From Rothia mucilaginosa (lineage in GTDB: Bacteria; Actinomycetota; Actinomycetes; Actinomycetales; Micrococcaceae), in NCBI RefSeq assembly GCF_001548235.1, contig NZ_AP014938.1, positions 682,001 through 746,000 on the forward strand: a stretch of 64,000 bases of DNA. Direction: 5' to 3'. The notes below the pieces were generated by a model, which was not told the origin of the DNA, did not search any database, and worked only from the letters and a program-made list of their open reading frames with translations. The position numbers were made by a program, and so were the translations under genes. Each line of letters begins with the position of its first letter. Positions within the stretch are counted from its first letter, which is position 1. Shown here piece after piece: positions 19,546 through 33,300 of the stretch.

Positions 19546-20727
19546 TTACGCCTCGCGTGCCTGGTCGTGGAGCATCCACTGGTCGGGGCCGAAGATCTCG
19601 TAGTTGATGTTCTTGCCGGGGACGCCTGCCTCCACCAGTGCGGAGCGTACGCCCTGCATGAAGGGCAACGGGCCGCAGAGGTAAACGTTAGCGTTGGCGG
19701 GAACATCCAGCTTGGATACGTCGACGCGGCCGGTGAAGTCGCCGCCTTCGCCCTCGATGAAGGATACGAGGCGTGCGTTGGGCAGCTTGCCGACGAGCTC
19801 GGTGAGCTCTTCGCGCAGGGGCCAGGTGTCCAGGCGGCGGTCTGCGTGGACCACGGTCACGGGACGCTCGGAGCCCTTCTCAACCAGCTCGGAGAGGAAG
19901 CTGAGCATGGGGGTGGTGCCGATGCCTGCGGAGAAGAGGTACAGGGGCGCCTCGGGGTCGCCGAAGCCTTCCAGAGTCAGGTCACCGTAGGGGTTGGAGA
20001 TTTCGACGACTGCGCCAACTTCCAGCTCGTGCAGGATGGAGGTCATCTCGCCGTTGGGGTCGAGCTTCACAGCGATGCGGCGCTGGTTCTTTTCGCTGGG
20101 CAGCAGGGTGTACTGGCGTGCCTGGCGCAGGCCGTCACGTGCGGGAACGACGATGGAGATGTACTGGCCGCCCTTGGACTCGGTCATGGGGGTCTCGTCG
20201 GCGGGCTCGAAGGTCAGAACTACGACGTTCTCACCGGTCTCCTTGCGGTCAACGAGCTTGAAGGGTGCGAACATGACGTCGTTTGCCTGGGAGGCGTACA
20301 GGCCCTTCTCCAGCTTGATGAGGGCGTTGCCCATGAGCCAGTAGACCTCGGTCCATGCCTCAACGATTTCGGGGGTAGCCAGGTCGCCCAGGTTAGCGGC
20401 GATTGCCTCGAAGAGGTACTTGTAGACGGTGGGGTACTCTTCTTCCTTCAGGCCCAGGGATGCGTGCTTGTGTGCAACGCGGGAGAGGACCTCGTCCGGG
20501 TAGGAGTCCGGGTGCTCGACAATGTAGGAAGCGAATACTGCGATGGAGCCAGCCAGCGCGCGAGGCTGAGTACCTTCAAGCTGGGAGGAGCGGGAGAACA
20601 TGCCGTCCATCAGGTCGGGGCGGGCGGCGAACATTCGACGGTAGAAGTCGGGGGTGATGTCGTTAATGCGCTCAGCAATGATGGGCAGCGTTGCCTCAAT
20701 AATGGGGCGGGACTTTTCGGAGAGCAT
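19546..20727 (-). CDS. hmp: flavohaemoprotein, nitric oxide dioxygenase
   Basis: This 393 aa cytoplasmic enzyme oxidises NO to nitrate with O2 and NAD(P)H. The globin domain (about 1-135) includes the proximal histidine region RVAHKHASLGLKEEEYP. The FAD domain (about 145-255) has QYTLLPSEK and the NAD domain (about 265-393) has LFSAGIGTTPMLSFL and YLCGPLPFMQGVRSAL. The ATG at 20727 has AGAAGG nine nt upstream. The neighbouring NsrR-type gene on the same strand strongly suggests NO-responsive control. The 630-nt upstream region holds inverted repeats. Confidence 0.94.
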   Translation of the reverse strand: MLSEKSRPIIEATLPIIAERINDITPDFYRRMFAARPDLMDGMFSRSSQLEGTQPRALAGSIAVFASYIVEHPDSYPDEVLSRVAHKHASLGLKEEEYPTVYKYLFEAIAANLGDLATPEIVEAWTEVYWLMGNALIKLEKGLYASQANDVMFAPFKLVDRKETGENVVVLTFEPADETPMTESKGGQYISIVVPARDGLRQARQYTLLPSEKNQRRIAVKLDPNGEMTSILHELEVGAVVEISNPYGDLTLEGFGDPEAPLYLFSAGIGTTPMLSFLSELVEKGSERPVTVVHADRRLDTWPLREELTELVGKLPNARLVSFIEGEGGDFTGRVDVSKLDVPANANVYLCGPLPFMQGVRSALVEAGVPGKNINYEIFGPDQWMLHDQAREA

Positions 20728-21357
20728 CGGTGCGTGCCTTCTTCCTGTGTGGTCACCTCGGTCATTGTGGCGAGGCCCCTCAAGATCGGTGTTGCGGGGC
20801 ATTCACTCAGACAGCTTAGTTGGTGACAGAGTGTTTATAAAGCACCCTTACCGTAGCATTTTGCGGGGTGCTTGCGCTGAGTGCAGGTCACTTTCTGAGG
20901 GATATTGAGGGGTCTAGGTGAGACTTATGGTTCAGCTTGACTCAAAGAGAGAGCCGAGCGTCACACTATATATTTTCAGCACTGTTTTTGAGTTCACCGC
21001 GTGACTAGCCCCGGAGTGTGCATAAAAATTCTGACCTGAAAATATATTTACTACGGAAAGTATGCAGTACAGTGCAAAAATGAATATGGTCACATTTTCT
21101 GCATTTGAGAAGCAAATTTGCAATATTCTGCACTTACTGCACAATTTTCGGATTCATGCAGGCGCCGACAACCGCGCACGCAGAGTCAAAAATACCCCCG
21201 CGCGGCCCTCAAAGCCCCCACGAAACACCCCCCCGTGCGAACCGCCTAGCAACCCCGGCATCAAGCGCAGAAACGCCCTAAACTCCGCGTTAAAAACTCT
21301 ATGGAGCCTCCCACCGGAAAGCTCCACAGATATCACGTATCTCTTGAATACTTACGA
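20728..21357. other. hmp upstream region with inverted repeats
   Basis: This 630-nt stretch has no supported gene. It contains AAGCACCC (20838-20845) opposed to GGGTGCTT about 18 nt away. It also holds an exact 12-bp inverted repeat, ATATATTTTCAG (20968-20979) and CTGAAAATATAT (21036-21047), with 56 nt between. GCAAATTTGC (about 21113) is a short palindrome. These are candidate sites for hmp regulation. The short open frames here have no ribosome-binding sites. Confidence 0.5.
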
Positions 21358-21828
21358 CTAGCGCGCAGGCAGCGCATTCTCCGGAGGCCCAAAGCCCAGC
21401 TCGACAAACACCGGGCCAACAGGGCGCGCACCGGCAGTCAACTCGCTAATGATCACCGAATCAACCGATGCATAGAATGCCTCGCGAGCCTTCGCCAGCA
21501 CATTGCGCAGGCGACAGAACTTATCGAGGGGACAGTGGCCGTTCTCATCCTCGCACTCAATCATGGGGATATCGCCCTCAGTAGCGCGAAGAATAGTGCC
21601 GACGGTCGCAGAACGACCCGCATCGGAGAGCATGACGCCACCGGCACGACCACGAGTCGAGTCCAGGTAACCCATGTTCACGAGGAAAGCTACAGCCTTC
21701 GCCACGTGGTTGTAGGGGGTGTCCACACCTTCAGAAATCTTCTGGGTGGAAAGCTTCTGACCGGGCTCCAGAGCAGACAGGAGCATCAGAACGCGGAGCG
21801 AGACATCCGAGAATGCTGTCAAACGCAT
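21358..21828 (-). CDS. nsrR: Rrf2 family transcriptional regulator, NsrR-like
   Basis: This 156 aa regulator has an N-terminal winged helix (MRLTAFSDVSLRVLMLLSAL, then LSTQKISEGVDTPYNHVAKAVAFLV). A three-cysteine cluster-binding segment follows: C, six residues, CPLDKFC. NsrR binds an NO-sensitive iron-sulfur cluster and represses hmp. Adjacency to hmp on the same strand supports this over IscR or RirA, though identity rests on family and context. The ATG at 21828 has GAAGGAG at ideal spacing. Confidence 0.85.
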   Translation of the reverse strand: MRLTAFSDVSLRVLMLLSALEPGQKLSTQKISEGVDTPYNHVAKAVAFLVNMGYLDSTRGRAGGVMLSDAGRSATVGTILRATEGDIPMIECEDENGHCPLDKFCRLRNVLAKAREAFYASVDSVIISELTAGARPVGPVFVELGFGPPENALPAR

Positions 21829-22187
21829 GGATACTCCTTCTATCCTTCTCGTGCTACCGTCCCCTCCACGGAGGCGGCAACGGATGCGTGAACCGGGCGG
21901 GGTTCGACGCGTTCAAAAATCTTACATTGGCATTGTATAGGGGCGGCAAGAGGGCAAGAAATTATGAGCAGCTACTATTGCCCCCAAACCACCCCGGCGG
22001 GGGTTTTAAAGTATTTCTCAAGAGCAAGTGGATTGCATAGCCTTACACTCACACCACTGCAAGAAAACTTGCCGTTCCCCAGGTGATAGGGATTCAAATT
22101 CCCCCTCAACGGAAGGAAGGAGCGGAATCTCACCGGGAGATTCCGCTCCTTACAAAGCGCTATACCGTAGGTATTAGCTGGAGTGTC
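21829..22187. other. nsrR promoter region and pckG 3' region
   Basis: The stretch has no supported gene. On the minus strand ATACAATGCCAATGTAAG (about 21923-21940) is a -10-like and repeat-containing element about 100 nt before nsrR, a candidate promoter and self-operator. The pckG terminator lies at 22117-22151. Confidence 0.4.
22117..22151 (-). terminator. terminator of pckG
   Basis: A perfect 15-bp stem (AAGGAGCGGAATCTC / GAGATTCCGCTCCTT) with a five-base loop sits about 36 nt after the pckG stop. The minus-strand tail is CCTTCCG, so the T-tract is weak. Confidence 0.7.
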
Positions 22188-24038
22188 TTAGTCCTCCAGA
22201 GCCTTTGCCAGAGCGTCGCGCTGTTCGCGAACCTCGGCAGGCAGCTTGTTGCCGAACTTCTCCAGCCACTCGTCGATGCCGGGCAGCTCAGCAGCCCATT
22301 CTTCCTTCGAGACAGCCAGAGCAGCCTTCAGCTCTTCCTCGGAGATTTCCAGACCGGTCAGGTCCAGGTCTTCCTTGGTGGGAACGGTGCCCAGGAAGGT
22401 CTCCTGACCGCCAGCCTTGCCGTCAAGGCGGTCGAAGATCCACTTCACAACGCGAGAGTTCTCGCCGAAGCCGGGCCATGCGAAGCCGCCGTCAGGGGTG
22501 CGGCGGAACCAGTTGACGTAGTAGACCTTCGGCATGTTCTCTGCGCCGTGCTTCTTGCCCAGATCCAGCCAGTGCTTGAAGTAGTCACCAGCGTTGTAGC
22601 CAATGAAGGGCAACATAGCCATCGGGTCGCGGCGAATCACGCCGACAGCGCCCTTAGCAGCCGCGGTGGTCTCGGAGGAGAGGGTAACTGCGCGGAACAC
22701 GCCCTGCTCCCAGCTCTCGGACTCAGAAACCAGGGGGATGGTGGTCTTGCGGCGACCACCCAGAACGATAGCGCTCAGCGGCACACCCTCGGGGTCGTAG
22801 TACTCGGGAGCGAGCATGTCGACCTGGGATGCGGGGGTGCAGAAGCGGGAGTTCGGGTGAGCTGCCGGGCGGCCGGACTCGGGGGTCCAGTCCTTACCGG
22901 TCCAGTCAATCAGGTGTGCGGGAGCCTCGTCGGTCTTGCCCTCCCACCAGACGGAGCCGTCGTCGGTCAGTGCAACGTTGGTGAAGATGGTGTTGCCCTT
23001 GGCGATAGCCTTCATAGCGTTCGGATTGGTGGAGTAACCGGTGCCCGGTGCCACGCCGAACAGGCCAGCCTCGGGGTTGACCACGCGTGCCTGGTGGTTC
23101 TCGTCGAACTCAATCCATGCGATGTCGTCGCCGACCATCTCAGCCTTCCAGCCGTCAATGGTGGGCTCCATCATTGCGAAGTTGGTCTTGCCACATGCGG
23201 AGGGGAACGCTGCGGAAATGTAGCGAACCTTGCCCTCGGGGTTGGTGACCTTCAGGATGAGCATGTGCTCTGCCATCCAGCCCTCGTCGCGACCGATAAC
23301 GGATGCGATACGCAGTGCGTAGCACTTCTTACCGAGCAGTGCGTTACCGCCGTAACCGGAGCCGAAGGACCAGATTTCGCGGGTCTCGGGGAACTGGACG
23401 ATGTACTTCTCGGGGTTGCAGGGCCAGGGAACATCTTCCTGACCGGGCTCCAGGGGTGCACCGACAGAGTGCAGAGCCTTGACGAAGAAGCCGTTGGTCT
23501 CGTTCAGCTTGGCAAGAACGTCCTTACCAATGGTTGCCATGATGCGCATGGAGCAGACAACGTATGCGGAGTCGCTGAGCTCAACAGCAATCTTGGGGTT
23601 CTTAGCCTTCAGGGAGCCCATGACGAAGGGAATAACGTACATGGTGCGGCCGCGCATGGAGCCCTCGAACAGACCGGTCAGGGTCTGCTTCATTTCGACG
23701 GGGTCGCGCCAGTTGTTGGTCGGGCCTGCGCCTTCTTCAGTCTCGGAGCAGATGAAGGTGCGCTCCTCGACACGTGCAACGTCGTCGGGGTCGGAGAAAG
23801 CTGCGTAAGAGTTCGGGAATTCGTGATCGCTGAGGCGAACAAAGGTACCGGCGTCGACCAGTTCCTGTGCCAGGCGGTCGTATTCTTCCTGGGAGCCATC
23901 GACCCAGTAGATGTGCGCGGGCTGGGTCAGGGCCGCAACTTCGCGAACCCAATCCAGAAGGCCCTGGTGGGTAGTGGGTGCACTCTGCAGCTCCTTTTCG
24001 AGCTCAGCAGAGAGAGTACGAGTTGAGGTGTCAGCCAT
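22188..24038 (-). CDS. pckG: phosphoenolpyruvate carboxykinase (GTP)
   Basis: This 616 aa gluconeogenic enzyme converts oxaloacetate plus GTP to PEP, CO2 and GDP. GTP-type marks are present: the kinase loop [16 protein letters not shown], the metal-binding [13 protein letters not shown], the substrate-binding [18 protein letters not shown], and [17 protein letters not shown]. The ATG at 24038 (MADTST) has GAAGGGG nine nt upstream; an in-frame start at 24056 does not. It stands alone with a terminator behind it. A 10-bp inverted repeat 84-118 nt upstream may control it. Confidence 0.96.
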
Positions 24039-24121
24039 TGACGTTTTCCCCTTCAATCGGTGGCCCGGATACTACGTTGATCCGGATAGGTCTGCAGTAA
24101 CAAAGAAGCAGTTAAACACTA

Positions 24122-24155
24122 CAAGCGTGCAAATAATCGTGAATATGCACGCTTG
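24122..24155. promoter_or_regulatory. 10-bp perfect inverted repeat upstream of pckG
   Basis: CAAGCGTGCA and TGCACGCTTG are exact reverse complements separated by 14 nt. The element lies 84-118 nt before the pckG start codon. It fits an operator for a dimeric regulator or a leader hairpin. Confidence 0.5.
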
Positions 24156-24472
24156 GACAGTCTCCACTTCCTCGTGATGCTTACAGAATAACGCATTAAT
24201 GCGCGGTAGAGCCTTCTATAACGCCATTTCTTACGTTTTGCGCATCACATTCTTTGGGCGAGAAGATTTTTTGGAGGATTTTGGGGGTGATTCTGCAGGG
24301 TCTAGGCGGATGTTTTGGGCGTCCTTGAGGTAGGTTTCGGGGCAGAGTTCGGGGCGGAACAAAAATATTTTAAAAAAATTTTAGGAGCGCAAAACCCCCG
24401 GAATCATGCGGTAAAACGGGGTATTTGAGAGTCTTTCGGAGGCGATTTTAGGCAAATTTCGAGTTTTTCGGC

Positions 24473-24501
24473 TTGCGTGCACTCAAGGACATCCGTATAG
24501 T
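24473..24501 (+). promoter_or_regulatory. tRNA-Arg promoter (TTGCGT-17-TATAGT)
   Basis: The -35 TTGCGT (24473-24478) and -10 TATAGT (24496-24501) are 17 nt apart. The mature tRNA starts about 48 nt after the -10. The form matches both rRNA promoters in this window. Confidence 0.75.
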
Positions 24502-24548
24502 AGTACCTGTTGCCGCGACGGGTTGAAGAAATCCAAAGCGAGGAACAT

Positions 24549-24624
24549 GCGCCTGTAGCTCAACGGATAGAGCATCTGACTACGGATCAGAAGGTTGGGG
24601 GTTCGAATCCCTTCGGGCGCACCA
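24549..24624 (+). tRNA. tRNA-Arg (anticodon ACG), CCA encoded
   Basis: The acceptor stem GCGCCTG pairs with CGGGCGC. The anticodon stem-loop is TCTGA CTACGGA TCAGA with anticodon ACG. The T arm contains GGTTCGAATCC. ACCA follows in the DNA. The cloverleaf is 76 nt with CCA. A strong terminator follows at once. Confidence 0.95.
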
Positions 24625-24627
24625 ATG

Positions 24628-24658
24628 ATCCCCGGTTCTTCGGAACCGGGGATTTTTT
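24628..24658 (+). terminator. terminator of tRNA-Arg
   Basis: The 11-bp stem ATCCCCGGTTC / GAACCGGGGAT has a TTCG loop and is followed by six T. Confidence 0.93.
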
Positions 24659-25003
24659 GTGTCTCCAGAAATACGCTCAGACAGTGCCCCGTCAAAAGCA
24701 CCGAGTACAACACAGGCCGCCGCGCTCACGACAGGCTGCGTGTTCACGACAGGCGGCGCGGCGCGTAGAAGCCACAGTGCATGGAGATGCCTATATAGGA
24801 GAGCCTGTATAGAGGTGTAGCAAAGACGCTTCAACCGCCTCGTCCGCATCCAATAGCTGAGCCAAAAGTGCGCCTCACCCTGTGAATCCACAGATTTACG
24901 CTCCAAGATGACGTGCTCCGGGGCACACCCGCGAAAAAACGCCTAGGATGGAAAGAGGACCCTTCACACATAAGCTGGAGGGCAGACAACGCAAAGGAGC
25001 ACT
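24659..25003. other. upstream region of the repeated-module gene pair
   Basis: About 345 nt without a supported gene. TCACGACAGGC occurs twice 18 nt apart (about 24725-24755). I do not recognise a promoter with confidence; TAGGAT near 24943 is a weak -10 candidate. A good ribosome-binding site, AAAGGAG, lies 4 nt before the ATG at 25004. Confidence 0.35.
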
Positions 25004-26659
25004 ATGGCACAGCTATCCATTCCGCAGTCCCTGATAGGTGCGCTCATCGATATTGCTGATTTGGGAACACTCGATTACTTCCCGCCCACCGAACGATGCG
25101 CCCACTGGTCCCTCTATGACGCGCAACGCCAGGAGCTCCTCTGCCCCTGCGCACCCGCCGCCAACACCACCACAGAAAAGCTCTTTGAGGCCGCGGCGAA
25201 GATTCTCTACGAGAATTTCCCCCGATATATCGACTCACCCGAGGAAATTATTCCTTATACTTCCCGCCAGGAACTCGTTGCCGCCCTACGCCGCGGCGAT
25301 GAGGAACCCAGCAACAGTACGCCTCGTGAAGAGGAACAGAACGACCTGCAGGCAGCCGAAGCTACCGCAGACTCCACGGCCGAGGCTCCCGTTGCAGAGG
25401 CTAACGAGGGTGCAGTTAGCGAGGATGCCGCGGTGAGCGCCACCGCCGTTCCCAAGCCGACTGCCCCGAAGCCTGCGGTGCCCAAGCCTGCAGTACCGAA
25501 GCCGACGCCCTCCCCCGCGCTCTTTGCCGCCCGCGCGGCACAGGCACCCGCCCTGACTCCCAGCCCGGCTCCCAGCGTGCCGGCAGAAGCCCCTGTGGAA
25601 GCACCCGCAGAGGCAACAGCAGAAAAGACGGTTCCTGTACCTACCCCCGCCACGGTTACCCCCGCGGCGCCCAAGCCTGTTGCGCCCAAGCCCACCGCAT
25701 CCATGCCCGCTACGCCCAAGCCTGCAGCGCCGACTCCCGGTGCGCCTTCCCCCGGCATGTTCCGCAAGTCCACGCTGACCTACCGCCCGCCGCGCATCGA
25801 AGAGTACCTGGAGGGTCTGCGTGCCCGCCAGCAGGCAGCTGAAGAAGCCACGGAAGCCGCGCAGTCGGCAGCAGCTACCGAGCAGGCACCGGCTGACGAG
25901 TTGCCCATGATCAGCCAGTCGTTGCCGAGCGCGCCCGTAGCCGAGCCGACCGCTCCAAAGCCTGCCGCGCCGAAACCCGGTGCACCGATGCCTGCCGCGT
26001 CCACCCCGAGCGCACCCGTAGCAGAACCGGTAGCCGCCGCACCTCGCGCTATTACCGCCGAGGACCGCGAACGCAGCTACCGCCTGCGCCCGAGCCTGCG
26101 CGCCCGCCTCGAACGCGAAAATATCAGCGAAGAGCTCGTACGCACCATCCTGCGCGAAGGCGAAGCGGAACGCATCAACGACTGGACCATTCGCTTCACG
26201 CACGACGACTACCGCGTTGACGTGAACACCGCCTCCGCAGAAGTCATCACCGTCATTGACGAATACGACGCCGACTACAACGAAGCGGCACAGGCATCCC
26301 TGGCGCAAGGCGAATACACCTCGCTCAACGCCCTGGAACTCGAATTCAGCGAGCGCGCCCGCACCTTCTTGAAGAAGAACCCGCCGTTCGTTTTTGATCT
26401 GATGCTTCAGGCGCTGAGCAGCCCCGAAAGCGTGCGCATGGCTGAAGGCTGGACCCGCATCTACGCGGCGCAGGGTCTGGAAATTGCGATTTCACCCGAT
26501 GAGCGGACCGTTCTGGCTCTGGCGAAGACCCCGGATTTCCATGTTCTGCACGCGGAGAACCTGCGCAAGGCACAGCTGGAAGAGCTCAGTAATACCCTGG
26601 CGAAGCAGGCAGAACATCAAGTAGCTCGGGCAGAAAACACCACCGAGGAGGAGAAATAA
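25004..26659 (+). CDS. unknown protein with Pro/Ala linker and two repeated modules
   Basis: This 551 aa protein is not one I recognise. Residues 1-95 form an ordered-looking N-terminal domain with WSLYDAQRQELLCPC. Residues about 100-350 are a low-complexity linker of PKPTAPKP-type repeats, interrupted near 250-285 by a charged helical stretch. Two copies of a module of about 58 residues follow at 362-418 and 448-508. Each has two short helices, then a basic W/R segment, then a strand ending in hydrophobic residues (VRTILREGE...WTIRF...VITV; MLQALSSPE...WTRIY...VLAL). The pattern resembles DUF4258/BrnT-like toxin folds, by eye only. There is no signal peptide or membrane segment. It has a strong AAAGGAG site and is coupled to the next gene by TAATG. 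Confidence 0.6.
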   Translation: MAQLSIPQSLIGALIDIADLGTLDYFPPTERCAHWSLYDAQRQELLCPCAPAANTTTEKLFEAAAKILYENFPRYIDSPEEIIPYTSRQELVAALRRGDEEPSNSTPREEEQNDLQAAEATADSTAEAPVAEANEGAVSEDAAVSATAVPKPTAPKPAVPKPAVPKPTPSPALFAARAAQAPALTPSPAPSVPAEAPVEAPAEATAEKTVPVPTPATVTPAAPKPVAPKPTASMPATPKPAAPTPGAPSPGMFRKSTLTYRPPRIEEYLEGLRARQQAAEEATEAAQSAAATEQAPADELPMISQSLPSAPVAEPTAPKPAAPKPGAPMPAASTPSAPVAEPVAAAPRAITAEDRERSYRLRPSLRARLERENISEELVRTILREGEAERINDWTIRFTHDDYRVDVNTASAEVITVIDEYDADYNEAAQASLAQGEYTSLNALELEFSERARTFLKKNPPFVFDLMLQALSSPESVRMAEGWTRIYAAQGLEIAISPDERTVLALAKTPDFHVLHAENLRKAQLEELSNTLAKQAEHQVARAENTTEEEK

Positions 26660-27912
26660 TGTCCGCTAAGCAGATTACCGTTCCTCTTGAGGTGTACGTT
26701 CGCCTGCAGGAGCTTGCCTCCCTCGCCGCCTATAGTTACCGCGATGAGCAGGGCTCCGAAGAGAACACTGCATACGATAAGCCCTGGGATTTGCTCTCCA
26801 AGGACGGCGCCTCCCTGCTCGATGAGAACGGCGCGCTCAAGCCCGAAGCGGCAGAGCTCTACTTCACCCTCCTGCCGCTCATCGCCCAGGAATTCGTGCA
26901 GCAGCAACAGGCACTCGTGGACGCGTACCGTCAGGCACCCAAGCCCGCCGCCGCACGCGCCAAGATTCGCCCCTCCAACCAGCGCCTCATTCCGCTGACC
27001 GAGGTGCCGCTGGAGAACCAGCGTATTGCCGCGCGCATCGAGAAGGAATTCTACGGCGACGTGCCACCGCGCCGCCGCGTCTACGGTGTGCTCCCCGGCG
27101 TGATGGATTACATGATGCGCCACGGGCTCACCTACGAGCTGCTTCTAGACATCATCGAATCCCCCGCAAGCACCGTGGTTCAAGAAAGCGCGCAAGAGAA
27201 CCGCTACGGCCGCGAAGTCACCCTCTACACGCATGAAGAGGAAGGCTACCAGGTGGTGCTCAACCCCCTGACCGCCGAAGTGCTCGCGCTACGCCCGCTA
27301 CAGGCTCTCGCCGGAGGCTACCAGCTCTCCCCCGAGGCTCAGGCTCAGCTCAAGTCGCTCGGCCTAACCGGCGAGTACATTGCCCGCATCCTCGATGAGG
27401 CTGAGGACCGCCGCCCGATTCCCGGCAGTAGCCGCACCGTGTACTCACTCAACGGCTACCAGGTCGAGTTCTCGCACTCCGACCAGCAGGTCATTCGTAT
27501 TAGTCGCGGCACCGCACCCAGCCGCAACCCCTTCGAATCGCAGCCGAGGATGAGCGGCACGAAGAGGCAGCGCGGCCGCAAGATTCCGCACGATGTGGAC
27601 GCGTTCGTGCAGCTGTTGCAGGAGCACGGCTTCACCATCACCATGGGCGGTAAGCACTACGATATTCGCCACGAGAAGCTGGCTCCGGGTCAGAAGGCGG
27701 TCACCTCCGTGACCCCCTCGGATTCGCAGCGCTGGCACCTGAACTCGGCACGCCAGATCCGCAATACCTTCGGTATCGACCTGCGCTACGCTGACCCGCG
27801 CGATAGCGTACGCGGTATTGTGCGCGGCCCCGGAGGAAGCGTCCAGAATACCGATCACCACAGCGCAGAAAAGCAGGAGGCCGAGAAGGCTACGGAGAAG
27901 GAATCGGAGTAG
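26659..27912 (+). CDS. unknown protein with two repeated modules and a HicA-like C-terminal domain
   Basis: This 417 aa protein is not assigned to a known family. Residues 1-90 begin with a helical domain (TVPLEVYVRLQELASLA). Two modules follow at about 145-212 and 223-282, alike in pattern to those of the upstream gene (LLLDIIESP...VTLY...VLAL; IARILDEAE...RTVY...VIRI). Residues about 310-377 look like a HicA/YcfA domain: VDAFVQLLQEHGFTITMGG, KHYDIRH, and a late LNSARQIRNTFGI helix. The tail is acidic. The start overlaps the preceding stop by one base after GAGGAGGAG, so production should be coupled and stoichiometric. A terminator follows. Function is unknown. Confidence 0.6.
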   Translation: MSAKQITVPLEVYVRLQELASLAAYSYRDEQGSEENTAYDKPWDLLSKDGASLLDENGALKPEAAELYFTLLPLIAQEFVQQQQALVDAYRQAPKPAAARAKIRPSNQRLIPLTEVPLENQRIAARIEKEFYGDVPPRRRVYGVLPGVMDYMMRHGLTYELLLDIIESPASTVVQESAQENRYGREVTLYTHEEEGYQVVLNPLTAEVLALRPLQALAGGYQLSPEAQAQLKSLGLTGEYIARILDEAEDRRPIPGSSRTVYSLNGYQVEFSHSDQQVIRISRGTAPSRNPFESQPRMSGTKRQRGRKIPHDVDAFVQLLQEHGFTITMGGKHYDIRHEKLAPGQKAVTSVTPSDSQRWHLNSARQIRNTFGIDLRYADPRDSVRGIVRGPGGSVQNTDHHSAEKQEAEKATEKESE

Positions 27913-27953
27913 GTCTTCGTCACCGTTAAAGCGCGCCTGCGTGCCGGTTCTTT

Positions 27954-27992
27954 ATACTGCCCCCAGCATGTCTTTGCATCTGGGGGCAGTAT
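27954..27992 (+). terminator. terminator after the repeated-module gene pair
   Basis: The 13-bp stem ATACTGCCCCCAG / CTGGGGGCAGTAT has a 13-nt loop and a TCATT tail, about 40 nt after the stop. Shortly downstream GGGCAATAC occurs twice (near 28021 and 28043), echoing part of the stem. Confidence 0.7.
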
Positions 27993-28191
27993 TCATTGGC
28001 GCTGATATCCCGCATTGTCAGGGCAATACGGGGTAGACTGGGGGCAATACAGACATGCTATTCAGCATAAAAATTAATATGCGTTCCCGTGATATGCGTG
28101 ACGGTAGGGTTGGGGATGCGCCACAAAGTACGGTGAATAACAGCCCCTACCTCTACAATAGAAACGCATCACTACAGAAGAAGGAGAACGC

Positions 28192-28512
28192 ATGGGCGTA
28201 ACGATTAAGGTCACTGACGAAGCAGGCGTAAACTACGACATTCAGTGGGAAGACCACCACACCCTCCTGGAAGCCCTCCAGGCTAACGGCGTGCCGGTCC
28301 TCGCAACCTGCGGTGGTAACGCATCCTGCGCTACCTGCCACGGCTTCATCGACCCCGAGCACTTCGAAGCTTCCGGTGAACGCACCGAAGCTGAGCAGGA
28401 CCTGCTCGACATGGTCGACGATGTCGCCAACGAATACTCTCGCCTGTGCTGCCAGGTCGAGTACGCCCCCGGTATGGACGGAGCAGAAATTCAAATGCAG
28501 GCGGCGATGTAA
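28192..28512 (+). CDS. 2Fe-2S ferredoxin, adrenodoxin/putidaredoxin type
   Basis: This 106 aa electron carrier has the cluster ligands in CGGNASCATC (C, five residues, C, two residues, C) and a fourth cysteine in SRLCCQVEY. Acidic residues between them and ERTEAEQDLLDMV are typical of the vertebrate-type ferredoxins that serve P450s or similar oxygenases. No redox partner is encoded nearby. The ATG has AAGAAGGAG upstream. TACAAT near 28155 could be its -10. A lipoprotein gene starts 2 nt after the stop. Confidence 0.92.
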   Translation: MGVTIKVTDEAGVNYDIQWEDHHTLLEALQANGVPVLATCGGNASCATCHGFIDPEHFEASGERTEAEQDLLDMVDDVANEYSRLCCQVEYAPGMDGAEIQMQAAM

Positions 28513-28514
28513 TC

Positions 28515-29462
28515 ATGTTTAAATCGGCTCAGGTACTCGCATCAACCACCCTCCTCTGTTGCGTGCTCGCGCTCAGTGGATGCGGCGCGTCCCAGGCCGG
28601 TCAGGAAGCTGAAGGCACCTCGGCGCAGCCGAGTGCTTCGGCTTCGGTCAAGCCCGGTACGATTCGAGTAGCCTCCGACGGGGCTACCCCTTCTGTGTCC
28701 CCGGGCTCCATTACCGTGGTGAACTCCCCCGATGCGGCGCACCACGATTCTTCCTCTGAGCACTCCGAGTCTTCTTCCCACACCGAGACTCACGAGTCGA
28801 AGCAGAACTCTGACTCTCATTCTTCTGATTCCTCCCGCGAGGGTTCCGATCAGAACAAGTCAGACGACTCTGCAGATTCTCAGCAGGATTCCCAGAAGAG
28901 CTCAAACTCGTCGTCACAGTCGGGTTCCAACTCTTCGGGTAACTCCTCGAACTCCTCCGGTTCTTCGGGCTCGTCGAATTCTTCCAATTCCTCGAACTCT
29001 TCGGAGAAGTCCTCTAGCTCCTCCAGCAATACTGTTGCTGAGGGCCCGACCCAGTGCGATCTGGATGACCTGAACATTTCGGTTGCTGTGGGAGAAGGCT
29101 CCCCCGGCGCCCGAAACTACACCCTGTACTTCCAGAACTCCTCAAACTCCTCCTGTACCCTGCGCGGCTACCCGCGTGTGGTGCATGCGGGTCCTTCGGG
29201 AACCTGGGTTGGTCGTGAGGCTTCCACCTCCGATGAGTACATGAACTCTGCGGGCGTGACCCTTAACCCCGGCGATAGCACCACCGCGGTACTGCGTTCG
29301 GTGTACCCGGCACGCTTCGGCGATGATTGCGGTAGCCGCCCGGTTCAGGGCTTCCTGGTGGGTCTTCCCTCGGGTTCCGGTGGAGTGATTGTTCCGCTGG
29401 ATACGACCGCGTGTTCCTCGTCTGTTCCGCAGCTGTCGGTGGGCCAGTTTGGTGCCCGCTAA
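28515..29462 (+). CDS. secreted lipoprotein with Ser-rich stalk and DUF4232 domain
   Basis: This 315 aa protein starts with a lipoprotein signal peptide ending in the lipobox ALSGC (cysteine 23). A long Ser/Asn/Asp-rich low-complexity stalk (about 35-195) looks like a wall-spanning spacer. The C-terminal domain (about 197-315) matches DUF4232: QCDLDDLNISV, SCTLRGYPRVV, and paired cysteines. The function is unknown; such domains are common in actinobacterial surface lipoproteins. The ATG at 28515 follows the ferredoxin stop directly, without a strong ribosome-binding site, so coupling is likely. The stop lies in a perfect 16-bp tandem duplication. Confidence 0.82.
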   Translation: MFKSAQVLASTTLLCCVLALSGCGASQAGQEAEGTSAQPSASASVKPGTIRVASDGATPSVSPGSITVVNSPDAAHHDSSSEHSESSSHTETHESKQNSDSHSSDSSREGSDQNKSDDSADSQQDSQKSSNSSSQSGSNSSGNSSNSSGSSGSSNSSNSSNSSEKSSSSSSNTVAEGPTQCDLDDLNISVAVGEGSPGARNYTLYFQNSSNSSCTLRGYPRVVHAGPSGTWVGREASTSDEYMNSAGVTLNPGDSTTAVLRSVYPARFGDDCGSRPVQGFLVGLPSGSGGVIVPLDTTACSSSVPQLSVGQFGAR

Positions 29463-29484
29463 GGCAGCTGCCCGCTAAGGCAGC
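29453..29484 (+). repeat. perfect 16-bp tandem duplication across a stop codon
   Basis: TGCCCGCTAAGGCAGC is present twice in direct succession (29453-29468, 29469-29484). The first copy contains the lipoprotein stop codon TAA. Confidence 0.9.
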
Positions 29485-29542
29485 GTTGCGGATGTAAATA
29501 ACTCTGGCACGTTGTGTGTACTTATAGTTCACTTGTGCACCT

Positions 29543-29590
29543 ATAGTTCAAGGGCGGTTCCCCGTGCTGGGGGAACCGCCCTTGAACTAT
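29543..29590. terminator. bidirectional terminator
   Basis: A stem of about 21 bp (ATAGTTCAAGGGCGGTTCCC / GGGAACCGCCCTTGAACTAT) is followed by TTTTAAG on the plus strand. It serves the lipoprotein gene and probably the convergent nitroreductase. TATAGTTCA also occurs just before the stem at about 29524. Confidence 0.88.
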
Positions 29591-29601
29591 TTTTAAGCCT
29601 A

Positions 29602-29627
29602 GTGTTTAGCTATGGTGTTTAGCTATG
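29602..29627 (-). repeat. 13-bp tandem duplication downstream of the nitroreductase stop
   Basis: GTGTTTAGCTATG is present twice in direct succession (29602-29614, 29615-29627), 17 nt after the minus-strand stop codon. Each copy carries TAA on the minus strand. Confidence 0.85.
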
Positions 29628-29643
29628 CCGTATCCGCGTGCTC

Positions 29644-30231
29644 TTAGAGGGAGCGGGTGACGTCCTCGTGGCTGAAGCGTGCACCGCGCGGGTATGCGGG
29701 AGCCTCGCCGTGGCCGAGGTTGACGACCAGGAACGGGATCTCTGCGTTGTCCGCGAAGAATTCCTTCTTGATGCCGTCGAAGTCTGCGCCGGTCATGGGG
29801 CCAGCGTCCAGGCCGAGGGCACGGATTGCGGTGATGAAGTAGCCTGCCTGCAGGTGAGCGCTCAGCTCACCTGCAGGGGTGGCAAGCTCCTCGGTGGTGA
29901 AGAAACCCTTGATGAAGTCGGCAGCGTAGGGGTTGAAGGTGTCAGCGTGCTCTACCCAGTTTGCGTCCGCGGAGAGAACCGCGGTCACCGGTGCCGCCTG
30001 GGTCTTTTCCTGGTTACCGTCTGCCATGTGTGCGACGAGGCGCTCGCGTGCTTCGGGGCTCTTGACCCAGGTGATGCGCAGGGGCTGGCTATTGAAGGCG
30101 GTGGGGCCGTAGAAGGTCAGCTCCTGGATGCGGCGCAGCTGCTCGTCAGTGACGGGCTCCTCGGTGAAGGAGGAGACGGTGCGCGGCTCGTGGAAGAGGT
30201 TGATGAGCTGTTCTTCGGTCAGGCGGGTCAT
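29644..30231 (-). CDS. nitroreductase family protein, malonic semialdehyde reductase RutE-like
   Basis: This 195 aa FMN-dependent enzyme of the nitroreductase superfamily carries the RutE/HadB subgroup marks FHEPRTVSSF, YGPTAFNSQPLRITWV and SAHLQAGYFITAIRALGLDAGPMTG. RutE reduces malonic semialdehyde to 3-hydroxypropionate in pyrimidine degradation, but no other rut gene is near. A general quinone or aldehyde reductase role is equally possible. The ATG at 30231 has AAAGGAG at good spacing; the frame opens at 30264. Confidence 0.85.
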   Translation of the reverse strand: MTRLTEEQLINLFHEPRTVSSFTEEPVTDEQLRRIQELTFYGPTAFNSQPLRITWVKSPEARERLVAHMADGNQEKTQAAPVTAVLSADANWVEHADTFNPYAADFIKGFFTTEELATPAGELSAHLQAGYFITAIRALGLDAGPMTGADFDGIKKEFFADNAEIPFLVVNLGHGEAPAYPRGARFSHEDVTRSL

Positions 30232-30366
30232 GGTGAGGCTCCTTTGGGTTGTTCTCTCAGTCAATTACTTTACAAGTAAAATATTACATGCTCTATAGAA
30301 GCTCTGTCAAGCACATCTTCCTCCCCGACCCCCAACAATTCAAGAGACGCACACCATAAACCCCGC

Positions 30367-30378
30367 CATAATAGATAC
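30367..30378 (+). promoter_or_regulatory. -10 CATAAT, 6 nt before the lhr ATG
   Basis: CATAAT at 30367-30372 ends 6 nt before the start codon at 30379. There is no Shine-Dalgarno, which fits a leaderless transcript. No good -35 is seen. Confidence 0.45.
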
Positions 30379-33300
30379 ATGACCGACGCACTCTCCCACT
30401 TCTCCACCCCCGTACGCGACTGGTTCCGCGCCACCTTCAGCGCACCCACCGCCGCCCAAGAAGGCGCCTGGGAGAGCATCCGCAACGGCAACAACACCCT
30501 CATCATCGCCCCCACCGGCTCCGGCAAAACCCTCGCCGCCTTCCTCTGGGCACTCGACGCCCTGCACCGCGAACACGAAGCCGGAACCGCAGGCGGCACG
30601 CGCATCCTCTACATCTCACCCCTCAAAGCACTCGGCGCCGACGTCGAACGCAACCTGCGCGCACCACTGACCGGAATCACCCGCCTAAGCGGAAACAACA
30701 CGGGCGAACCGAACATCAGCGTGGGCGTGCGCAGCGGCGACACCCCCGCACGCGAACGCCGCCAACTCATCAGCAACCCGCCCGACATTCTCATCACCAC
30801 CCCCGAATCCCTCTACCTCATGCTCACCAGCGCCGCCCGCAACACCCTTACGGGCGTGACCACCGTAATCGTGGACGAGATTCACAACCTCGCCGCCACC
30901 AAACGCGGCGCACACCTGGCGGTCTCCCTCGAACGCCTCGACGCGCTCCTCGAAAAGCCCGCACAGCGCATTGGCCTCTCCGCAACCGTCGAAAACCCGG
31001 AGGCGGTCGCCCGGTTCCTCGGCGGCATTCAGCCGGTGACCATCATGAGCCGCCCGGTCGCCAAAGAATGGGACCTGCGTCTGAGCGTGCCCGTACCCAA
31101 TATGGCGGCGCTCGGAGGCGCCAACGACTACGGGCAGGGGCTCTACGCCCCATCAGAATATGCGCCCTCGGAGGTGCCGGGCGGCGGGGGCTCAACTTCT
31201 GCCGGCTCGGCGCAGGGCGCGGCACAGCCTGCCCCCAGCGCAGCGAATACCCCGGCAAGCGCTCCCTACACGCTCGAAGATGCCATTGGCGTATTCCCCG
31301 GCCAAGAAACCGGTCAAGAAACCGGACAGGCAAACCCGGCGCGACAGGGCAATAACGCCGCGCCTAAAAATACGCTCACCATCCCGGAAAAGGTATTGCG
31401 AGAAGGGGAGCTGCGCGAAAAGGCATTGCGAGACACCGCCGATAGCGAGCGCCCCGAGACCTCCATCTGGCCGCGCGTGCAGGAGCGCATCGTCGACCAT
31501 ATTGAGAACAACCGTTCTACGATTGTTTTCGTTAACTCGCGCGGACTAGCGGAAAAACTCACCGCGGCACTCAACGATATTCACCTGCGCCGCGTCCTCG
31601 CGAAGCAGGGAATTGATCCCGAAGACTATGCGGCAGGCATCTGCGACATCGCCGAGGTGCCGCCGCTCGCCCGTGCGCACCACGGCTCCGTATCCAAGGA
31701 ACAGCGCACCCTCATCGAGGAGGCGCTCAAGGGCGGAACCCTGCGCTGCGTGGTCGCCACCAGCTCCCTGGAACTGGGCATCGATATGGGCCACGTGGAC
31801 CTCGTAATCCAGGTGGCCGCGCCTCCCTCGGTCGCCTCCGCGCTGCAGCGCGTGGGTCGCGCCGGACACCGCGTGGGCGAAATTTCGCGCGGATTCTTCT
31901 ACCCCAAGCACCGCGGCGACCTGCTCGGTGCAACAGTCACCCTCGCCGGAATGCGCAGCGGAACCCTCGAGCCGCTCACCATCCCCACCAACCCCCTGGA
32001 CGTACTCGCGCAACAGACCGTCGCCGCCTGCGCGTTGGGCCCCATCAGCGTGGACTCCTGGTACGAGGCGCTACGCCGTAGCGCGCCCTACGCCGAACTG
32101 CCGCGCGCCCTCTTCGACTCCGTGCTCGAAATGCTCGCCGGACGCTACCCCTCCGACGAGTTCGCCGAACTGCGCCCGCGCATCATCTGGGACCGCACCC
32201 CCACCGAGGAGGCACCCTCCGGCAGTATTGAGGGCCGCCCCGGTGCGCAGCGCCTCGCCGTCACCAGCGGCGGCACGATTCCCGACCGCGGACTCTTCCC
32301 CGTCTACCTGGTCAGCGGCGATGAAGAGCGCGGCCCCAAGCGAGTGGGTGAGCTCGACGAGGAAATGGTGTACGAATCCCGCGCTGGCGAGGTCATTACC
32401 CTCGGCGCGAGCAGTTGGCGTATTGAAGAAATTACGCACGACGCGGTGCGGGTCTCCCCCGCGCCCGGTCAGCCCGCGCGCCTGCCCTTCTGGCACGGCG
32501 ACCGCATGGGTCGCCCCTACGCCCTGGGTGTGCAGACGGGTGCGTTCACGCGCGCCCTCTCCAGCCTGGATGCCACCGATAGCGCCGCCGCCCGCCAGCA
32601 GCTTGAACAGCTCGGACTGGACACCTGGGCGGTCGATAACCTGCTCGCCTACCTACGTGAGCAGCGCGAATCCACCGGGGCGGTCCCCTCCGACACCCGC
32701 ATGATTGTGGAGCGGCACCGCGACGAACTGGGCGATTGGCGAGTGGTCCTGCACTCGCCGCTCGGCTACGGAGTGCACGCACCCTGGGCGCTGGCGGTGC
32801 GCGCCCGCATCGAGGAGCGGTACGGGGTGGATGCCTCCGTCATGGCGAGCGATGACGGCTTGATTCTGCGCCTGCCCGCCATGGAGGATGTACCGCCCGG
32901 CGCTGACCTATTCCTTTTCGACCCGGACGAGCTGGAGGCGATTGTCACCGAACGCGTGGGCGATTCGGCGCTTTTTGCGTCTCGGTTCCGTGAGAATGCG
33001 GCGCGTGCCCTGCTGTTGCCGCGCCGTGATCCGGGTAAGCGCACCCCGCTGTGGCAGCAGCGTCAGCGTGCGGCTCAGCTGCTGGATGTGGCGCGTAAGT
33101 ACCCTGATTTTCCGGTGCTTTTGGAGACGGCGCGCGAGTGTCTGCAGGATGTGTACGATGTTCCGGCGCTGGTTCAGGTGCACCGTTCCCTGCAGTCTCG
33201 GGCGGTGTCCATGCTGGAGGTTGAGACGAACGACCCTTCGCCTTTTGCGCGCACCCTGCTCTTTGAGTACGTTGCCGAGCACCTCTACGATGGCGATGCG

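Follow-up and report, generated by a model that had tools for sequence, protein, structure and literature searches.

A HicA-like domain and four DUF4258-like modules in an overlapping gene pair of Rothia mucilaginosa

In many toxin-antitoxin (TA) operons the antitoxin gene precedes the toxin gene. HicA occurs in 14 contexts according to the survey of Gerdes 2024 (PMC10865869), and a functionally important histidine has been described in the beta1-beta2 turn of B. pseudomallei HicA (His24; PMC3969222) and in gp91 of phage Adephagia (H31; PMC11373665). Two phage HicA-like proteins are reported to be strongly toxic in M. smegmatis (PMC11373665, PMC11797047), and inhibition in cis has been described for the fused type II toxins CapRel and EzeT (PMC10865869). 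DUF4258 (PF14076) is a toxin family of the BECR/RelE superfamily, which a 2025 study called undescribed in the literature (PMC11980606). The present analysis concerns a stretch of 64,000 nucleotides (the window; NZ_AP014938.1, positions 682,001 to 746,000) from the 2.29 Mb, single-contig genome of Rothia mucilaginosa, in which two overlapping genes, A and B, encode proteins that carry DUF4258-like modules and, in B, what looks like a HicA domain. We tentatively favour the explanation that the pair derives from the duplication of a single gene, B being a toxin-like ribonuclease (RNase) and A a translationally coupled, nuclease-less paralogue that restrains it.

Domains of the A and B proteins

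Protein B appears to end in a HicA-like mRNA-interferase domain, of predicted dsRBD-like fold and RNase activity. Residues 306-377 matched a profile of 24 PF07927 members with a probability of 96.2% (hhalign; E 2.6e-9, 56 columns, 27% identity), the profile having been made from 24 of the 25 loci read out (L060 was dropped; L066, L076, L077, L078 and L082 were excluded, and further matches existed). Twelve of the 15 members of the domain family matched PF07927 at E<=1 (best 1.6e-6; B itself was not among the matches), and the PADLOC HicA-like model recognised the relatives P0123, P0126 and P0128. A profile search of the PDB gave 18 matches, five of them to HicA-type entries (5yrz, 1whz, 6hpb, 6g26 and 4p78; E 0.016-0.34) and others to antibodies, arginine repressors and a Holliday junction resolvase. 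Among the PHROGs families, B matched phrog_2053 (1.5e-7) and phrog_2089 (5.6e-5), both without assigned function, while its relatives gave weak matches to phage families named 'toxin'.

The histidine aligned with the catalytic-type His of HicA, His333 of B, lies in a GGKH turn and is present in all 20 domain sequences aligned (P0127 stands outside the domain-family alignments, this one included). In the 15-sequence domain alignment one His and one Arg are invariant, and a second His is found in 90% or more of the sequences. The motif GGKHYDIxH is carried by 121 of 121 listed B variants; here and below, variant counts refer to the 120 best listed for each protein, to which the window's own is added in the case of B, and are skewed to close relatives.

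The four modules of about 60 residues, A1 and A2 in protein A and B1 and B2 in protein B, are mutually homologous as judged by profile comparison. Using profiles of 6 to 9 sequences each, hhalign probabilities were highest in pairs with B2 (A1-B2 95.7%, A2-B2 95.3%, B1-B2 77.6%), which is the hub of the similarity among these profiles; the other pairs gave 88.8% (A2-B1), 88.5% (A1-B1) and 44.5% (A1-A2). All six pairs outscored all 8 of their own column-shuffled decoys, a lenient test in that two controls, A1 with HicA (1.8%) and the C-terminal domain of B with DUF4258 (1.7%), also beat their shuffles; a third, the single-copy module with HicA, did not. The preliminary description of this DNA, made by eye, had proposed four copies of a segment of about 58 residues, and both the pairwise probabilities (44-96%) and the module boundaries agree with it. 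The count of four applies to the window and is not fixed, as gene A of genome G173 has a single module (3 in all) and that of G153 is split by a stop.

That description had also likened the segment to DUF4258/BrnT-type toxin folds, of which the DUF4258 part is the better founded. The module of the single-gene relatives (see below) matched DUF4258 at 96.4% (E 1.2e-9 in one comparison) and BrnT at 37%, and all modules merged matched them at 96.2% and 61%, the DUF4258 profile comprising 8 members, 7 of them over the cut-off (8 of 9 used; the partial match L049 was excluded). BrnT was rejected as the nearest family on these values, single module sets giving 0.2-37%; the two families are themselves related (95.7%). 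Taken singly, the Rothia module sets reached 59% (B2), 39% (A1), 35% (A2) and 3% (B1) with DUF4258, and the Pfam DUF4258 model matched neither the whole proteins A and B nor any of 11 modules scanned one by one at E<=5. By these comparisons the individual Rothia modules are degenerate. A PDB search with the module profile returned designed proteins and unrelated chains only. In a tree of only 76 columns, which excludes P0009 and P0012, all 27 Rothia modules group together (support 80/89); A1 pairs with B2 (93/94), and A2 is split, one row falling with B1. This pairing misfits the simplest history, in which a two-module gene was duplicated once.

The domain content first described was incomplete, since an N-terminal domain is present in each protein and the HicA-like domain in B. 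The N-terminal domain of B matched that of the single-gene relatives P0123, P0125 and P0126 at 46.5% and that of A at 3.7% (hhalign). The N-terminal head of A bears the motif [CH]xHW-x11-CP[CH] in 120 of 120 listed A variants, and it is readable in genome G149; none of the 121 listed B variants has it. Cys and His exchange at both outer positions of this motif, for which reason the head looks as if it may form a metal site, possibly for zinc. The Pro/Ala linker (46% P+A over residues 100-350 of A) had been thought to join the module copies. It is in fact restricted to A, where it lies between the N-terminal domain and the modules.

Both open reading frames (ORFs), of 551 and 417 amino acids (aa), are intact in the window, and their proposed junction was confirmed: they overlap at TAATG behind the Shine-Dalgarno-like GAGGAGGAG. 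Among the seven genomes found to carry A and B, the genes overlap in four and are spaced by 0 to 21 bases in the other three (ORF coordinates). Searches of Pfam, NCBIfam, PHROGs and PADLOC gave no match for A. For B, Pfam gave a chance-level match only and NCBIfam did likewise, and a PDB search by sequence with B alone found nothing; its single weak PADLOC match (a CARF model, E 0.022) and the two MCM21 matches of the whole-B profile in the PDB look like chance. Named records matching B belong to Rothia sp. RSM386 (95%) and Rothia mucilaginosa (84%). In the source records of R. mucilaginosa homologues (P0143, P0227, P0110), A is named 'DNA repair protein' and B 'cell wall biosynthesis glycosyltransferase'; these look like misannotations, as no family search made here backs either name.

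Single-gene relatives and the origin of the pair

Single chains that combine a head, a linker, one module and a HicA-like domain are found in R. kristinae (P0124, 270 aa, and P0123, genome G081), and likewise in Kocuria rhizophila P0126 (289 aa) and in P0125. In P0123-P0126 the head motif reads H-x-H-W-x11-C-P-H. In more distant relatives a single module and the HicA-like domain occur without the head motif: five loci of genus g5, Corynebacterium felinum P0128 (YcfA/HicA-like by its source name), a Microbacterium plasmid protein annotated as HicA, gp51 of phage Pavo, and genome G403 (the module being recognised by eye in the last three). From these sequences the ancestral order was likely an N-terminal head, a linker, one DUF4258-like module and a HicA-like domain. 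The two Rothia proteins show a complementary pattern, with the HicA domain only in B and the Cys/His head only in A (listed variants), while P0123-P0126 have both. If the ancestor had both, the head was retained in A and the HicA domain in B, each protein losing the other part.

The explanation that we tentatively favour begins with the duplication of one such gene, comprising head, linker, a DUF4258-like module of RelE/BECR type and a HicA-like domain, to give the paralogues A and B. B would be the effector, a HicA-family RNase which in its free form would cleave RNA and halt translation. A, being encoded first and overlapping B, would most likely bind B co-translationally through the shared module and N-terminal regions, so as to restrain or position its HicA domain; the metal-site-like head of A might sense or scaffold, and a trigger such as phage infection or stress would free B. 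In favour of this explanation stand the several, partly overlapping lines that point to a HicA-like domain, the retained His, the low omega of this domain in four comparisons, the complementary pattern, the antitoxin-first layout of A and B, the endonuclease present at the site in three other Rothia, and the published cis inhibition of fused toxins and toxicity of two phage HicA-like proteins. The narrower proposal of a TA-like pair whose antitoxin is the duplicated copy of the toxin, and which forms a co-translated obligate heteromer with the four DUF4258-type modules as scaffold and not as toxins, we hold to be rather unlikely. The preliminary description is confirmed in its observation and partly supported in its interpretation. 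It had suggested an assembly, evolved from toxin folds, that binds RNA or serves as a decoy. This is incomplete: given a HicA-like domain with a catalytic-type His, the probability of an RNase that is active or can be controlled is no lower than that of a pure decoy.

Several observations weigh against the favoured explanation. B, whole or as the domain alone, does not match the curated PF07927 model, nor does it match the PADLOC HicA-like model, and in three relatives the Pfam HicA_toxin matches (7.3e-4, 2.6e-5 and 0.012) fall below the curated cut-off of 27 bits. P0127 has Leu at the position of the catalytic-type His, and the small relative L102 lacks this His as judged by eye. The equivalent of Gly22, two residues before the His, is present in B but several relatives have K, S, P or R there, and TPSDxxRW stands in place of the HicA signature VPxH...GTLR. 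No HicB-type sequence was matched in A or in the rest of B (Pfam, NCBIfam, PHROGs, PADLOC), a result that leaves room for a HicB fold lacking sequence similarity, and an orphan mycobacteriophage HicA-like protein is reported to be non-toxic (PMC13148394). The single-gene relatives at greater distance do not have the head motif, so the case for an ancestor with a head depends on R. kristinae, P0125 and Kocuria. Furthermore, no partner gene was recognised adjoining the single-gene relatives, so that A would be dispensable in some lineages. The HicA-like domain gives omega 0.18 in the saturated comparison with G173, and it is not in every case the most constrained part of B, the stretch 93-135 being more constrained in comparison with G002 (omega 0) and G173.

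Some further occurrences of the domain and its relatives were recorded. A class-wide draw gave 13 of 394 genomes matching the HicA-like domain profile, the window's own included. In the genus g5 loci (L016, L017, L019, L020, L021) the module + HicA-like gene of about 300 aa lies near an ORF read as an RlmC-like methyltransferase, a stretch FRNKAKMVV being common to these ORFs in all five; in L019, L020 and L021 an alpha/beta-hydrolase-like ORF also adjoins it. Free-standing HicA-like ORFs of 76-84 aa from the same subfamily occur in Rothia G033, G155 and G152 (L018:6582-6824, L087:5663-5893, L088:5966-6220) beside an ORF read as a tyrosine recombinase, and in two of the three also beside one read as a glutaredoxin; no HicB was seen by eye, and no phage match was found for the 80-aa ORF of L018. 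P0123 matched seven Streptomyces phage records. The gp51 gene of phage Pavo (L085:4088-4588, 166 aa, 'hypothetical protein') adjoins an Lsr2-like gene and a serine integrase. The short locus L104 was left uninterpreted.

Table 1. Coordinates of the genes, domains and sites at the A+B locus (positions within the window)
Feature	Position	Strand	Remarks
tRNA-Arg(acg)	24549..24624	+	borders the site occupied by A+B (ARAGORN)
Gene A, 551 aa	25004..26659	+	N-terminal domain, Pro/Ala linker, two DUF4258-like modules; without HicA-like domain
A N-terminal domain, residues 1-75	25004..25228	+	hhalign 96.5% to the equivalent domain of P0123, P0125 and P0126
Metal-ligand-like motif C-x-H-W-x11-C-P-C, A residues 32-49	25097..25150	+	
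A Pro/Ala-rich linker	25229..26053	+	conserved LTYRPP...EYL stretch near 25754-25858 (composition, alignment)
Module A1, residues 355-425	26066..26278	+	profile comparison
Module A2, residues 441-512	26324..26539	+	profile comparison
Shine-Dalgarno-like GAGGAGGAG, then TAATG stop/start overlap of A and B	26645..26661	+	
Gene B, 417 aa	26659..27912	+	N-terminal domain, two DUF4258-like modules, HicA-like domain
B N-terminal domain, residues 1-92	26659..26934	+	without the Cys/His set
Module B1, residues 136-212	27064..27294	+	2.8% direct to DUF4258, barely above negative controls
Module B2, residues 217-285	27307..27513	+	59% direct to DUF4258; 91.7% to single-copy module
HicA-like (mRNA interferase-type) domain, B residues 306-377	27574..27789	+	
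His333 codon	27655..27657	+	aligned with catalytic-type His of HicA (GGKH turn)

Chromosomal site, selection and alternative explanations

Genes A and B are present together in seven of 35 Rothia genomes, 32 of which pass the completeness filter, and these seven have the pckG genes closest to that of the window (85-100%, against at most 83% in the remaining genomes). Within the stretches fetched, the gene order in the A+B genomes is flavohaemoglobin, Rrf2, pckG, A, B, ferredoxin, lipoprotein, nitroreductase and lhr; six of these genes were assigned by Pfam domains, and pckG and 'lipoprotein' are putative names. Of the 28 Rothia genomes that lack A+B, 12 were examined at this site. Each of the 12 has a tRNA-Arg(acg) between pckG and the ferredoxin gene (fdx), and the gap up to the latter measures 165-266 bases in eight loci, is 994 bases without a convincing gene in one, and contains a restriction endonuclease of NgoMIV type (E of at most 2.1e-85) in three. 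The interval is taken as a variable slot. The three endonuclease genes (L120:4369-5670, L118:3352-4749, L124:3181-4632) have a long N-terminal extension, and no methyltransferase was seen by eye among the ORFs listed for these intervals, of which the search covered only some. In G149 (L091) gene A is broken; since apparent frameshifts also affect pckG and rrf2 (and lhr) there, sequence errors may account for the breaks.

Both genes are under purifying selection. By the method of Nei and Gojobori, with synonymous divergence (dS) saturated for G153 and G173, the ratio of nonsynonymous to synonymous change (omega) was 0.10-0.25 over whole genes (three comparisons for A, the closest four for B), and for the HicA-like domain it was 0 (G159), 0.030 (G002), 0.039 (G101) and 0.050 (G153). 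Elsewhere the modules gave 0 to 0.21 where measurable, the linker 0.23-0.27 and the tails, that of B included, 0.18-0.48; several parts tie at omega 0 in the comparison with G159. The control genes gave 0.04-0.05 (pckG), 0.09-0.16 (lhr) and 0-0.08 (ferredoxin).

The main rival, which we regard as possible if somewhat unlikely, is that A and B form a housekeeping complex for RNA binding or processing, their HicA-like and DUF4258-like folds binding RNA or ribosomes as a non-toxin post-transcriptional regulator of one Rothia clade. Fixed synteny within a single clade, with a constant site and gene order in the seven genomes, fits this role as well and tells to that extent against a toxin, and purifying selection, the numbers of B-like (391) and A-like (1975) proteins among the candidates scored and the lack of a detected HicB partner agree with it. 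It accounts less readily for a catalytic-type His that is kept in all listed B variants and most relatives, for the occurrence of the HicA-like subfamily also in phages and beside recombinase-like ORFs, and for the restriction endonuclease that occupies the site in some relatives. This last feature, found in three of the 12 relatives checked, together with the proposal that HicA domains are anti-phage (PMC10865869), would instead suit abortive infection, in which recognition of a phage product by A, or by its head, sets B free. Such a role, a special case of the explanation favoured here, is distinctly unlikely: neither A nor B has a convincing PADLOC match, the neighbouring genes examined from 19546 to 35961 include none recognised as a defence gene, and A+B is fixed within the clade, not patchy.

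The pair might also be a decaying, functionless remnant of an element integrated beside tRNA-Arg, as the split gene A of G153, the single module of G173 and the mobile relatives of the HicA-like domain could suggest. We consider this very improbable in view of the omega values for the whole genes and, in four comparisons (0-0.05), for the HicA-like domain, and the breaks in G149 may not be genuine. No exact repeat of the tRNA 3' end of at least 12 bases was found between 24626 and 32000, and there is thus no sign of site-specific integration.

Comparison with known HicA and DUF4258 systems

B resembles HicA of HicAB systems (PF07927) in the profile match of residues 306-377, the retained His of the G-x-H turn and the overlapping upstream partner gene. 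It differs in that no HicB was seen, its HicA domain stands at the C-terminal end of a chain of 417 aa, the VPxH...GTLR loop is replaced as noted above, and the partner appears to be a paralogue of the toxin-like protein. A HicA domain within a larger protein is also found in the fused HicA classes 11-14 of the survey cited above (PMC10865869). Class 13, by its description there, comprises proteins of 340-440 aa with a mainly helical N-terminal part and a C-terminal HicA, and B fits its length and domain position; unlike B, classes 11-13 are described as fusing HicA to HicB, and class 14 as fusing it to SMC. The term DUF4258 is absent from the main text of that survey.

With DUF4258 (PF14076) the locus shares the module profile, at 96%, but it has four degenerate copies, and the DUF4258 fusions listed in Table 2 of PMC11980606 are DUF4258-MqsA and not HicA. 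BrnT (PF04365) is a related family with a weaker match to the modules. PtuZ, with a PIN-like domain and a BECR-fold RNase, likewise has two toxin-type folds per chain, one of them possibly structural only, but is described as belonging to a three-gene ptuXYZ operon with an ATPase and a nuclease, and without HicA (PMC11980606). In the literature searched, no account was found of DUF4258 fused to HicA, nor of a toxin paired with such a paralogue, consistent with the earlier remark that no system of this architecture had been described.

If the favoured explanation is correct, a toxin protein can yield its own partner when its gene is duplicated and the two copies lose complementary domains, and a HicA-type RNase can be surrounded by a scaffold made from reused RelE-type toxin folds. 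The apparently misnamed R. mucilaginosa genes would thereby gain a candidate, testable role and DUF4258 a new setting.

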